Shown: in pieces, positions 22,925 to 27,470 of the stretch
Layout of the letters: every line of letters starts with the position of its first letter
How positions within the stretch are numbered: the stretch's first letter is position 1
NCBI GenBank assembly: GCA_013297885.1
Contig: JAAFIR010000015.1
Coordinates: 1-64,000, forward strand
Source of the DNA: Leptospirales bacterium
GTDB lineage: Bacteria; Spirochaetota; Leptospiria; Leptospirales; Leptospiraceae
Direction of reading: 5' to 3'
Length of the DNA: 64,000 nucleotides
Notes under the pieces: model-generated
What the model was told of the DNA's origin: nothing
What the model saw: only the letters and a program-made list of their open reading frames with translations
Database searches by the model: none
Position numbers and translations under genes: made by a program

Positions 22925-23231
22925 ATTGACAAATTCATACTATAATTTATATAAGTCAAGACTTTTATACGGGATTGTATTCAATTTATTTGTTTTATAT
23001 AAATTAAAGCTTACAAAAGTCAGGATTAGGAAGATTTAACAAACTTTCAATATTAATGAAAGATAATAATTCCTAATATATAACCTTAAGAATCTAATTT
23101 AATAATCTCTTCTAATATCAAAATTTGATAAAAATTTTTTTAATCAAAAAGTCTAAAATTTGAGATTAGTTTACTCAAATGAATTGACAGATGCAAATAT
23201 TGAATACTCATAGAGGCTGAATAACAAATTG
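22925..23231. other. intergenic region, no gene seen
   Basis: About 300 bases of AT-rich DNA between two divergent genes. TTGACA at 23184-23189 could be a -35 box for the histidine kinase operon, but no convincing -10 follows at 16-18 bases. GAGG at 23213-23216 is a plausible though distant ribosome site. No repeat or RNA gene recognised. Confidence 0.5.
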
Positions 23232-24986
23232 ATGGAAAAGCGATTTATTGAAATAAACTACGACCCTGCAATTAAAGTTCGAAAGGTCACTGAAGAACAT
23301 TTTAATAAACAACCAGAAAATAAATTTATTCTAAAACCTTTTACTATTATCGGTAAAAAAGTATTTAAAAAATTTTCAGATAGAAGTCTTGCATTTAATT
23401 ATTTATTAAATTTTTTAAAAAAGAAATCCAAAGAAGAAAGAAACTTTGAATTGTATATTTTTTCAGAGCCTAAGAATTTAAATAGAAGCTTTTTCTCATT
23501 TTTTAAAGCTGAGTTAAAAAACAACTTGAAGTATGGGTTAATATTTTTTATAGAATTCTTAACAATATTTTTCAAATACATTCCAATTATTAAACTTATA
23601 TTCAGAAAAGAAACTACTATTAATAATATCATGTCTATAACTGTGAAAAAAAAATTACAAATAATCAAAATAGATATTTTTATTCCATTATTATTTTTCT
23701 TAAGTCCTATCCTATTTCGTTTTTCTTCATTTTATTCTTTTTCAATATGGTTTATTTTATTTATTATTTACTTTATTGTAATGTTTATCACATTTATAAA
23801 AATTAAAGTAAATCCAAGAGAGATTAATACAATTTTGGAGATTCAATATAAGTTAAAAAAATTGATTCGTAAAATTGAAAAATCAAAAAAATATAAAAAT
23901 AAAAAAACGGTTCTTATAATCAATTTTGATATTTATTCTTATTATGATTCAACGACTTCATTGAACTTAGCGAAATACTTACTTAATGCAGTTAATGAAA
24001 ATAAAAATTTGAATCTTATTTTTCATATCCAAGATCATGATTATATTAATTTTATAAAAACTGAATTAAAAGAAAATCAATTTGGTTTGGTAAATCTTTT
24101 ATTAGAAAGCAATGATGGTATTCAAGAATTAGAATTCATTGATAATGATGAATTGAAAAAAGAAAATCTTCCAATGAAATTCTTTGATTATGAACTTCAT
24201 CTGCGGCTAGAAAAATTATATGAGCAAAATGAAGAACTAGAAAAAGACAACGAAGAGTTAGAAAAAGAAAAGAATGAACATTTAGCTAGTTTGATTCAAT
24301 CAGCAAAATTAGAGTCTATGAATATTACTACATCTGGAGTTTCTCATGAAATAAGAAATCCATTATCCATCATTCAGCTAGTAATAGAAAATATGAGAAT
24401 TGAGAAAAATTTAAATAAAGAAGTTTTGCTAAAAGATTTAGATAAAATACAAACTCAAATTTCTAGAATCTATAAATTAACAGAAACTTTTCAGAAATTT
24501 TCTACGGGGAAAAATCTAACTAAAAAAAGTATTGATTTTCAAATTACTAATTCTTTGTATTTTTTTGAACAAAGGCTACTAAGTAATAAAATTCTAATAA
24601 ACTACGAAAAGCCTAAAAAACAAATTGGGGACATTGAATTCTCAGAGGAGCTTTCAATTGTGTTTGAAAATTTAATTAGCAATTCTATTGACGCTCTCAA
24701 GGCGAATAAAGATGCAACAATTCGTATAAAGATAAATTTAATGGATACTGAGTTATCTATTAAATTTTCTGATAATGGACATGGAATTCTTGAAGAAGAT
24801 AAAAAAAATATATTTACCCCACTTTTCACAACCAAAGGACCCGGGCAAGGCACTGGTTTAGGTTTATGGCTTTGCCATAAAATTGTAAATGAGAATTTGA
24901 AAGGAAATATTACTGTTGACAGTTTACCAAGCGAATGGACTACTTTTACTATATCACTTCCAGTGAGTGGAGATGAAAATGTATAA
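23232..24986 (+). CDS. membrane sensor histidine kinase, first gene of a kinase-regulator-PIN operon
   Basis: 584 residues from ATG 23232. The first ~95 residues are cytoplasmic and basic, followed by membrane segments at about 100-125 and two between 145 and 195. A ~110-residue soluble stretch of unknown fold (VLIINFDIYSYYDSTTSLNL ...) comes next, then a coiled coil (about 325-350). The HisKA H-box is GVSHEIRNPLSII (His about 371). The ATPase domain has N-box ENLISNSIDAL, G1 FSDNGHGI and the GQGTGLGLWLC G2 loop. All catalytic boxes are present. The C-terminus overlaps the response regulator gene. Confidence 0.88.
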   Translation: MEKRFIEINYDPAIKVRKVTEEHFNKQPENKFILKPFTIIGKKVFKKFSDRSLAFNYLLNFLKKKSKEERNFELYIFSEPKNLNRSFFSFFKAELKNNLKYGLIFFIEFLTIFFKYIPIIKLIFRKETTINNIMSITVKKKLQIIKIDIFIPLLFFLSPILFRFSSFYSFSIWFILFIIYFIVMFITFIKIKVNPREINTILEIQYKLKKLIRKIEKSKKYKNKKTVLIINFDIYSYYDSTTSLNLAKYLLNAVNENKNLNLIFHIQDHDYINFIKTELKENQFGLVNLLLESNDGIQELEFIDNDELKKENLPMKFFDYELHLRLEKLYEQNEELEKDNEELEKEKNEHLASLIQSAKLESMNITTSGVSHEIRNPLSIIQLVIENMRIEKNLNKEVLLKDLDKIQTQISRIYKLTETFQKFSTGKNLTKKSIDFQITNSLYFFEQRLLSNKILINYEKPKKQIGDIEFSEELSIVFENLISNSIDALKANKDATIRIKINLMDTELSIKFSDNGHGILEEDKKNIFTPLFTTKGPGQGTGLGLWLCHKIVNENLKGNITVDSLPSEWTTFTISLPVSGDENV

Positions 24987-25500
24987 TAACAAAGTATTGC
25001 TTATTGATGATGAAAATGAAACTTTAAATGAAGCAAAGAGATTACTCAATAACCATGAATTTATAGTTGATACTTTTGAAAATGGAACTGATGCTTGGGA
25101 AAAATTTCAAAATGATTTTTATCCAGTTGTAGTTACTGATTTGAGGATGTCTAGGAAAAGTTTAGATGGATTAGATGTTCTAGCTAATATAAAAAAAATT
25201 AGTCCAAATACTCAAGTAATTATTATTACTGGAAACGGAACTGAAAAAGATGTTCTTAAGTCCTTAAACCTTCATGCATTTGCTTATTTAATTAAAAGCA
25301 GTGATGAATACATTCAATTGCCTTCAAAAGTTAAAGAAGCTTTTACTGAATTTTCGAAATTGAGTGATATTCTTCTTGATAATTCTACTATTACAACTAA
25401 CCAAAATAAAACTCTTTCAACAGAAGAAGTTAGGGACTTATTAAAAAATTATCCCTCTTGGGGTGAAGCTGTACTTAAGGAAAGAGCAGAAGCAAATTGA
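24979..25500 (+). CDS. response regulator (receiver domain plus short C-terminal tail)
   Basis: I place the start at ATG 24979 because GGAG at 24969-24972 lies six bases before it; it overlaps the kinase stop by 8 bases. The receiver domain has the acidic pair LLIDDEN, the phospho-acceptor Asp in VVVTDLRM (about 52), Thr in IIITGNG and Lys in AYLIKSS. There is no DNA-binding or enzymatic output domain. After residue ~130 there is only a ~45-residue tail ending LSTEEVRDLLKNYPSWGEAV, which looks helical. The stop overlaps the PIN gene start (TTGA), so the natural output may be the neighbouring nuclease, with the tail possibly contacting it. That link is inference. Confidence 0.85.
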   Translation: MYNNKVLLIDDENETLNEAKRLLNNHEFIVDTFENGTDAWEKFQNDFYPVVVTDLRMSRKSLDGLDVLANIKKISPNTQVIIITGNGTEKDVLKSLNLHAFAYLIKSSDEYIQLPSKVKEAFTEFSKLSDILLDNSTITTNQNKTLSTEEVRDLLKNYPSWGEAVLKERAEAN

Positions 25501-25985
25501 AAGAAATCTATTATTTTGATACTAGTGTTTTAGTTCGCTATTATACAAATGAAATCGGTTCAGATGAAGTTAAAAAGATGGTTGATTCTGAATCAACAGA
25601 AATTTTTATTTCAACTTGGGCTATTGTAGAAGCTCACTCAGCATTAAAAGGGAATTTATTCAAACAAGGTTTAGATAAAAAAGAAATTCACCAAAGAAAA
25701 AAAAATTTTGAAGAAATTACAAATACTTTATTTTGGGACATTAACCATAAAAAATTCATTCTTGAAGATTTGCCTAGAAATTATTTTCTGAGAGCTTCCA
25801 GTTTGATTAAAGAATATAGTATTAATCAAGAAAAGAGTTTAAAAAATGGCGATGCTGTTCAAATTGTTGGTTATGAAAAATTACTTATGAATTTTCCTTC
25901 AGCAATATTTGTTTCTTCGGATAGACGTTTAGATAATTTAATAAAAGAGATTTCATATCAGTCTATTTTTATTAGCCCAAATTAA
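25497..25985 (+). CDS. PIN-domain (VapC-like) ribonuclease
   Basis: 162 residues with the four acidic PIN positions: YYFDTSVLVRYYTNE (Asp 8), IVEAHSAL (Glu), KNGDAVQIVG (Asp) and FVSSDRRLDNL (Asp). PIN proteins of this kind are Mg2+-dependent RNases, usually toxins paired with a small antitoxin. No conventional VapB precedes it. Instead TTG 25497 overlaps the stop of the response regulator, giving translational coupling. Either the regulator's C-terminal tail acts as antitoxin or the nuclease is under two-component control. Confidence 0.82.
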   Translation: MKEIYYFDTSVLVRYYTNEIGSDEVKKMVDSESTEIFISTWAIVEAHSALKGNLFKQGLDKKEIHQRKKNFEEITNTLFWDINHKKFILEDLPRNYFLRASSLIKEYSINQEKSLKNGDAVQIVGYEKLLMNFPSAIFVSSDRRLDNLIKEISYQSIFISPN

Positions 25986-26033: not shown

Positions 26034-26369
26034 TTATTTTAGAATACTTTCGATTTCTTTTTTTAGAATTGGAATTTCTTCTTTTAAAATTAAAAAAATT
26101 CTCTCATAATCAACACCAAAGTATTGATGAATCAAGACATTTCTTAAATCTTTCCAAGATTGCCAATCAATTGAATGCTCTTGATGCCTAATTTCTTCAG
26201 ATAAGGAAGCAGTTGCTTCACCAATAATTTCCAATAGTCTAACAGATGAGTGCTTGTAATATCTATTATTTAAATATTCATCTAGATTCTTTAGAATTGA
26301 AATTAATTCTTCAAGCTCTAAACAAGCATCTAGTATATGGTTTAACCTAATATTATCCTTTAAATTCAT
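26034..26369 (-). CDS. HEPN-domain (HepT/DUF86) toxin
   Basis: 111 residues, all helical, with the RX4-6H RNase motif as RNVLIHQYFGVDY (about 78-90) and the preceding LLEIIGEATASLSEEI helix typical of DUF86. HepT proteins are RNases whose activity is blocked by the partner MNT nucleotidyltransferase, which AMPylates a Tyr near this motif; the Tyr in HQYF is present. It overlaps the MntA-like gene by 17 bases on the same strand. Confidence 0.9.
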   Translation of the reverse strand: MNLKDNIRLNHILDACLELEELISILKNLDEYLNNRYYKHSSVRLLEIIGEATASLSEEIRHQEHSIDWQSWKDLRNVLIHQYFGVDYERIFLILKEEIPILKKEIESILK

Positions 26370-26646
26370 AAATTAATTTAAGATCGTTTTTTATATGCGG
26401 AAAAATTTTTTCAGAAATTGAGTTTGGTGTTAACATATCAACCCTAAAATTTAGTTTGTTTTCTAATAGTCTTTTATATTTTACAATTCTTAATAAATTT
26501 ATATTTTGAGGAAAAAATACTAGAAGATCAATATCACTTGTTTCACTTTCTTGGTGCCTCGCTCTAGAGCCAAATAAATAAACTTTTTCAACCTCGGTAT
26601 CCTTAAAAAAATTTATGATTAATGGGAGCATCTCTTCTGTCTTCAT
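26353..26646 (-). CDS. MNT-domain nucleotidyltransferase antitoxin (MntA-like)
   Basis: 97 residues with the minimal nucleotidyltransferase motif YLFGSRARHQESETSDIDLLVFF: GSxAR followed by the DxD metal site. It pairs with the HEPN gene just downstream. Known HepT-MntA pairs detoxify by adenylylating the HEPN protein. The order (antitoxin first, overlap into toxin) is standard. Intact, unlike the second such pair at 29665-30284. Confidence 0.9.
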   Translation of the reverse strand: MKTEEMLPLIINFFKDTEVEKVYLFGSRARHQESETSDIDLLVFFPQNINLLRIVKYKRLLENKLNFRVDMLTPNSISEKIFPHIKNDLKLIYEFKG

Positions 26647-26946: not shown

Positions 26947-27255
26947 ATGTTTGAATATTTATTTGAAATTAAAACTGTTTTAGGTTTCTCAGTAAGGACG
27001 ACTAAAACTTATTGGGATAAAATATGTTTAAAACATCCTGAGCTAATTGATAAATTGGAATTAATCAAAGAAACTTTATTGCAACCAGATCAAATTAGAA
27101 AAAGTAAAACAGATGACATGGTTTTTCTTTTTTATATAGAAGCCGGAAGATATTGGTTATCAGTTGTAGCAAAAAAGGAAAATGAAATAGGTTTTTTAAT
27201 TACAGCTTATATCACTGATAAAATTAAAGAAGGAGAAATAATATGGCAGAAGTAA
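26947..27255 (+). CDS. putative RNase toxin (DUF4258/BECR-like) paired with DUF2283
   Basis: 102 residues. The pattern SVRTTKTYWDKICLKHPELI, LLQPDQIRKSKTDDMVFLFY, RYWLSVVAKKENEIGFLITA resembles the small barnase/RelE-like proteins (DUF4258, PBECR) encoded just before DUF2283 genes. A diverged relative occurs at 36506-36756, also directly before a DUF2283 gene, which supports the pairing. Overlap with the next gene is 13 bases. The RNase role is inferred from the family, not visible here. Confidence 0.62.
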   Translation: MFEYLFEIKTVLGFSVRTTKTYWDKICLKHPELIDKLELIKETLLQPDQIRKSKTDDMVFLFYIEAGRYWLSVVAKKENEIGFLITAYITDKIKEGEIIWQK

Positions 27256-27470
27256 AAGTATACTATGAACCAGAAACAGATTTACTAACTATTTTTTGGG
27301 ATACTCCACGTAAGAATCAAATATGCACTGAAACAGATGATGGAATTATTGTAATCAAAGATGGATTAAGTTTAACACCCATTGGAATAGAAATCTTATC
27401 ATTTAAACCAGGAGATAAAAGAATTGAAGGAATTACTGTTTCAATCGGGAACCCAATTCTTGAAGCTTAA
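27243..27470 (+). CDS. DUF2283 antitoxin-like protein
   Basis: 75 residues with the DUF2283 layout: KVYYEPETDLLTIFWDTP, DGIIVIKDGLSLTPIGIEIL. DUF2283 proteins are small all-beta partners of BECR-type toxins. GGAG sits seven bases before the ATG, within the 3' end of the toxin gene. Intact pair with the upstream gene. Confidence 0.82.
   Translation: MAEVKVYYEPETDLLTIFWDTPRKNQICTETDDGIIVIKDGLSLTPIGIEILSFKPGDKRIEGITVSIGNPILEA

Follow-up and report, generated by a model that had tools for sequence, protein, structure and literature searches.

A kinase-receiver-PIN gene trio in a relative of Leptospira: a likely VapBC variant whose antitoxin would be a response regulator

Closest described systems

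It has long been an open question what sets off chromosomal type II toxins. The antitoxins of type II systems normally bear a DNA-binding domain (PMC4803016), and in VapBC11 the C-terminus of VapB runs from a lateral site of VapC to its active site, with peptides of this C-terminus inhibiting the RNase (PMC6265470). Here, we describe a gene trio in which a sensor histidine kinase is followed by a receiver-only response regulator and then by a VapC-fold PIN protein. The nearest described system is VapBC, more precisely the VapC subclass with Phd- and DUF2281-like antitoxins, with which the trio shares a four-acid PIN protein, a (proposed) antitoxin gene overlapping the toxin start, and a tail motif. 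In contrast to VapBC, the proposed antitoxin of the trio is 173 aa long, a receiver takes the place of the DNA-binding domain, and the operon opens with a histidine kinase gene. Because the regulator lacks the DNA-binding domain, one of the defining features of VapB, we file the trio as a variant of VapBC and not as a member.

Other systems are similar in part. The VapB and RelJK antitoxins of M. tuberculosis are reportedly phosphorylated by the Ser/Thr kinases PknA and PknK, and PfiA by PfkA/PfkB (PMC13048266); these resemble the trio in that a kinase changes (or, for the trio, would change) the antitoxin-toxin interaction, but their kinase is encoded elsewhere and modifies Ser/Thr residues of an antitoxin that is otherwise an ordinary one, whereas the trio has a dedicated His-Asp pair inside the operon. 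In the PhyR-NepR general stress response, a response regulator captures a protein partner under phospho-control, as the trio regulator would, yet that partner is an anti-sigma factor and not an RNase toxin as proposed for the trio (PMC5964349). MrpC of Myxococcus, a signalling-controlled regulator, has been proposed as the antitoxin of MazF, but MrpC is a transcription factor whose role is contested between strains, and no receiver-toxin operon is described there (PMC4880591). Finally, the related bacterium Leptospira has a VapC RNase with VapB as its antidote, although as an ordinary vapB-vapC pair without two-component genes (PMC4105405). Neither a receiver-domain antitoxin nor a kinase-regulator-PIN operon was found described in the open-access literature searched, including Makarova 2009 for the terms searched, and a first reading of the DNA from sequence alone (hereafter the sequence-only reading), which knew of no described system of this form, held in this respect.

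Gene layout of the trio

The window, i.e., the whole stretch of DNA analysed, comprises positions 1 to 64,000 of contig JAAFIR010000015.1 (assembly GCA_013297885.1). The host belongs to the Leptospiraceae and is a little-known relative of Leptospira, whose genus was sampled with four genomes. The features of the trio are as follows, all on the forward strand.

23232-24986, forward strand: sensor histidine kinase ORF, ATG start (TTG at 23229 is an alternative)
about 23670-23815, forward strand: two hydrophobic segments (by inspection) within the N-terminal region of the kinase, whose family is unknown
24345, forward strand: codon of the kinase H-box His (HisKA), with the HATPase_c domain further on
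24979-25500, forward strand: receiver-only response regulator, the proposed antitoxin, ATG start, 173 aa (upstream GTG at 24967 is an alternative)
24994-25305, forward strand: receiver core (Response_reg)
25138-25140, forward strand: codon of the predicted phospho-acceptor Asp54, an invariant receiver residue
25417-25497, forward strand: antitoxin-like C-terminal tail STEEVRDLLKNYPSWGEAVLKERAEAN of the regulator (last 27 residues)
25459-25491, forward strand: tail core motif WGEAVLKERAE with a conserved Arg, resembling the antitoxin motif
25497-25985, forward strand: putative VapC-class PIN ribonuclease, TTG start, 162 aa
25518, 25629, 25851 and 25920, forward strand: PIN active-site acids D8, E45, D119 and D142, intact

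Kinase and regulator overlap by 8 bases, ATGTATAA, which include the regulator ATG at 24979, and regulator and PIN gene overlap by 4, the TTG start of the latter (25497) and the regulator stop sharing TTGA, so that the proposed antitoxin gene lies directly upstream of the toxin and is tightly coupled to it. No separate antitoxin ORF was found between or beside the trio genes in the window. A hidden one was considered as well and ruled out, since no flanking ORF of 20 aa or more recurs between trio copies. Per Pfam, the regulator matches Response_reg alone (3.4e-22), with no output or DNA-binding domain found. The sequence-only reading had asserted both overlaps (borne out by the ORF coordinates), the absence of a VapB-type antitoxin gene and the absence of a DNA-binding domain, and these claims held; its description of a tail of about 45 residues was fair, the relevant part being the last 27.

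Sensor kinase, receiver and PIN protein

The kinase matches HisKA (6.5e-9) and HATPase_c (1.6e-21) in Pfam, its ATP-binding motifs are intact, and its H-box, N box and G box residues are invariant in all three of the trios found (see below). In the receiver, D10, D11, D54, T84 and K106 are invariant across the same three, i.e., the acid pocket, the Asp, the Thr and the Lys are all kept. The two-component motifs of both proteins are thus intact, while phosphotransfer between them is inferred. Even with E-values of up to 10 allowed, Pfam gave no match for the sensor region of the kinase. Its layout had raised the possibility of a degenerate KAP-like NTPase, but with no Pfam match and a model pLDDT of 39 this remained an unsupported hunch and was dropped. 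Searches of NCBIfam retrieved only general similarity for the kinase and receiver and nothing meaningful for the PIN protein, and in PADLOC none of the three was known as a defence protein, the receiver match being marginal only.

The PIN protein matches the Pfam PIN domain (PF01850) at 3.6e-6, above the curated cut-off. Across 11 PIN proteins, the acids D8, E45 and D119 are invariant and D142 is nearly so. An AF2 model (pLDDT 87) matched the fold of 5x3t, a chain from an M. tuberculosis VapBC entry, with Z 14.3 and an rmsd of 2.5 over 134 residues. A PIN profile searched against the sequences of solved structures gave no VapC match; it was the fold search that found VapC. The protein is therefore predicted by its model to have a VapC-type fold with intact acids, and RNase activity and growth arrest are inferred.

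Recurrence, distribution and selection

Full-length relatives of the PIN protein were found in two genus mates, Leptospiraceae bacterium UBA2033 and 336R_metabinner_194 (G007, hereafter 336R), at 45% and 38% identity. Both PIN genes sit behind a receiver gene and a kinase gene (591-592 aa) in the same layout as in the window. The kinase/regulator overlap is 4 bases in both genus mates, and at the regulator/PIN junction there is a 4-base overlap in UBA2033 and a spacing of 2 bases in 336R. The kinase is the first gene in every trio. The genes flanking the trio differ in all three genomes, i.e., the trios occupy three unrelated chromosomal sites, which indicates that the unit has moved. Between the UBA2033 and 336R copies, dN/dS is about 0.17 for the kinase, 0.20 for the regulator and 0.09 for the PIN gene, and all three genes therefore appear to be under purifying selection.

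The 336R genome also carries a decayed fourth copy (G007:C41 17261-18016 and the end of G007:C5; L010 and L009). Here the N-terminus of the kinase is in frame with an antitoxin-like tail, the kinase core and the receiver having been lost, and a PIN start follows the tail near the contig end; the remaining PIN part lies at the end of another contig and is interrupted by stops and a frame change. We read the two remnants as one decaying copy, although the joining of the contig ends is unproven.

In the phylum sample of 392 genomes, the sensor region of the kinase is confined to trio copies, the decayed one included, apart from a faint degraded match in one further genome (G006) that was seen in one search only, and a PIN profile found no close PIN relatives outside trio copies. 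Across 48 genomes of the class, the regulator subfamily is confined to trios. No trio was found in viral contigs, plasmid matches were to ordinary VapC only (almost always beside an annotated antitoxin of the Phd type), and a search of genome contigs gave nothing beyond the UBA2033 and 336R relatives. Within this sample, then, the trio is known from one genus; other phyla were not systematically sampled.

One might object that the three genes are accidental neighbours, i.e., that a PIN gene has merely hitchhiked next to an ordinary kinase-regulator pair, given that many toxin-antitoxin genes lie in this region (per Pfam, and as the sequence-only reading had stated) and that such genes move often. 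Against this, the gene order and tight junctions recur at different sites in the three genomes, the phylum sample shows no case of the kinase sensor and close PIN relatives apart from each other, and the regulator bears an antitoxin-like tail. We consider this explanation very unlikely and largely refuted. The sequence-only reading had proposed a search for conserved trios, and had named beforehand two outcomes that would refute it: a PIN gene not conserved beside the two-component pair in relatives, or a standard antitoxin as the PIN partner. Such trios were found, the PIN gene adjoins the pair in every intact copy, and no standard antitoxin partner was found.

The regulator tail resembles VapB-type antitoxin tails

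The next-nearest PIN proteins of the phylum (E 1e-9 to 1e-5) are ordinary VapC of one class, with a start like DTSxLxKxYxxExGS. Twenty of their loci were taken, one of which lay at a contig end; in all 19 readable loci a small antitoxin gene is directly upstream of the PIN gene, and most of these gene pairs overlap by 4 bases, as in the window. The N-termini of these antitoxins are of unrelated kinds (Phd/YefM, DUF2281 or unnamed), but they share a C-terminal motif, roughly S-x-x-[VI]-[VIL]-x-x-R. An antitoxin/PIN pair from a Rhizobium plasmid has a similar antitoxin end (DSATFIRDMRDTDRY), and antitoxins that go with other VapC classes in the genus have different C-terminal ends. The three trio regulators end in WGEAVLKERAEAN, LSDEVSRMRGNS and LPEEVSNIREG.

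The tail motif was first spotted by eye, and a profile test was made afterwards. The profile was trained on 16 non-redundant antitoxin tails with the regulators excluded. The window regulator scored 11.8 and the UBA2033 regulator 15.2, within the range of 8.3-24.9 obtained for antitoxins left out one at a time. As controls, antitoxins of other classes did not exceed 4.0 and other receivers did not exceed 2.6, and the highest score among about 350 unrelated proteins was 7.0. The Rhizobium antitoxin tail scored 5.1, and the 336R regulator is only a weak match (1.0; shuffle p 0.19 or worse). In pairwise tests against 12 antitoxins, the window tail aligned best with that of locus L028, over 26 residues covering both tail segments (SFQESRQLLRKYKGKLSEAVISERRES vs STEEVRDLLKNYP-SWGEAVLKERAEA; shuffle p 0.001). 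The window and UBA2033 regulators thus carry a VapB-like C-terminal tail in the sense of a motif resemblance beyond all controls; that the tail binds the PIN protein is inferred. A model in which tail and PIN protein are fused through an altered reading of the junction was dropped, as the two frames could be joined only by readings that altered motif residues.

The PIN protein could instead be a mild processing enzyme and no toxin, activated or recruited by the phosphorylated regulator. An RNase under such regulation is plausible as the output of a two-component system, and there are no toxicity data. However, the regulator ends in a tail like those of antitoxins, every one of the nearest PIN relatives belongs to a toxin-antitoxin pair, and we regard this alternative as unlikely.

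Proposed mechanism

The reading that we consider likely is that the regulator is a VapB-like antitoxin in which a receiver has replaced the DNA-binding domain, and that a membrane kinase gates a VapC RNase; binding, toxicity, RNase activity and phospho-control are all inferred. The regulator would neutralise the PIN toxin through its VapB-like tail, an interface that has not been seen. By analogy with VapBC11, the last 27 residues would act like the VapB C-terminus, the first tail helix (STEEVRDLLKNY) lying along the side of the toxin and the second segment (SWGEAVLKERAEAN) bringing its conserved Arg to the acids of the active site. The phosphorylatable receiver would stand in for the usual DNA-binding N-domain, which makes autorepression via the antitoxin unlikely and would place control at the post-translational level, through the kinase. 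On an unidentified signal, the membrane kinase would phosphorylate or dephosphorylate Asp54, and the resulting change in the receiver would alter the grip of the tail and with it the amount of free RNase. Such gating is plausible because toxin binding is reportedly weakened or rearranged when antitoxins are phosphorylated on Ser/Thr (PMC13048266). As an idle system must keep its toxin bound, we lean slightly towards a signal leading to phosphorylation and hence to toxin release over the reverse, although this is a guess. The sequence-only reading had put forward the receiver or its tail as the antitoxin, which is supported in that the tail carries the motif of this VapC class's antitoxins; its suggestion of a phosphorylation-controlled ribonuclease with the kinase as sensor of the trigger remains an inference as regards binding, toxicity, phosphotransfer and the effect of phosphorylation on binding.

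The chief objection is that there is no evidence that phosphorylation matters, as opposed to mere fusion to a receiver scaffold. The regulator could be a constitutive antitoxin with a stabilising or dimerising receiver, the kinase signalling for another purpose or none. In favour of this, the N-domains that precede the antitoxin tails of this VapC class vary widely (Phd, DUF2281 and others), from which it follows that the N-domain is freely swapped. Nevertheless, the phosphorylation residues are invariant, purifying selection acts on both kinase and regulator, and the kinase gene comes first in every trio, so that a scaffold role alone seems unlikely. The bolder form of the kinase-gated reading, that a histidine kinase with an unrecognised membrane sensor directly arms or disarms an RNase toxin via antitoxin phosphorylation and without a transcriptional step, is one that we favour by a narrow margin.

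If the reading is true, the trigger of a toxin is wired into its operon as a membrane kinase, making the activating signal searchable; toxin release should be switchable in the test tube by defined phosphorylation; and RNase inhibition joins the outputs of response regulators. It would also suggest a general design in which antitoxin tails are modules attachable to sensory domains.

Neighbouring genes

The sequence-only reading had mentioned a neighbouring DUF4143 ATPase; this is not part of the system, as neither of the other two trios has it as a neighbour. Directly after the trio in the window, at 26034-26646, lies a convergent nucleotidyltransferase and HepT-like pair, an ordinary HEPN-MNT toxin-antitoxin system, and at 26947-27470 there is an overlapping pair with a toxin-antitoxin-like look, whose matches to DUF4258 and DUF2283 are weak and do not reach the curated cut-offs. 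In G006, the degraded kinase-sensor match lies near three tandem copies of a protein whose start resembles a signal peptide and which has the repeated core CHSAGCYATEYWLSN (L108 2079-4963, G006:C206). The 336R trio is followed by genes for a PtuA-like AAA ATPase (PADLOC E 8e-79) and a PtuB-like HNH nuclease (5.5e-35), which together form a Septu-like defence pair (L008 1898-3981, G007:C39).
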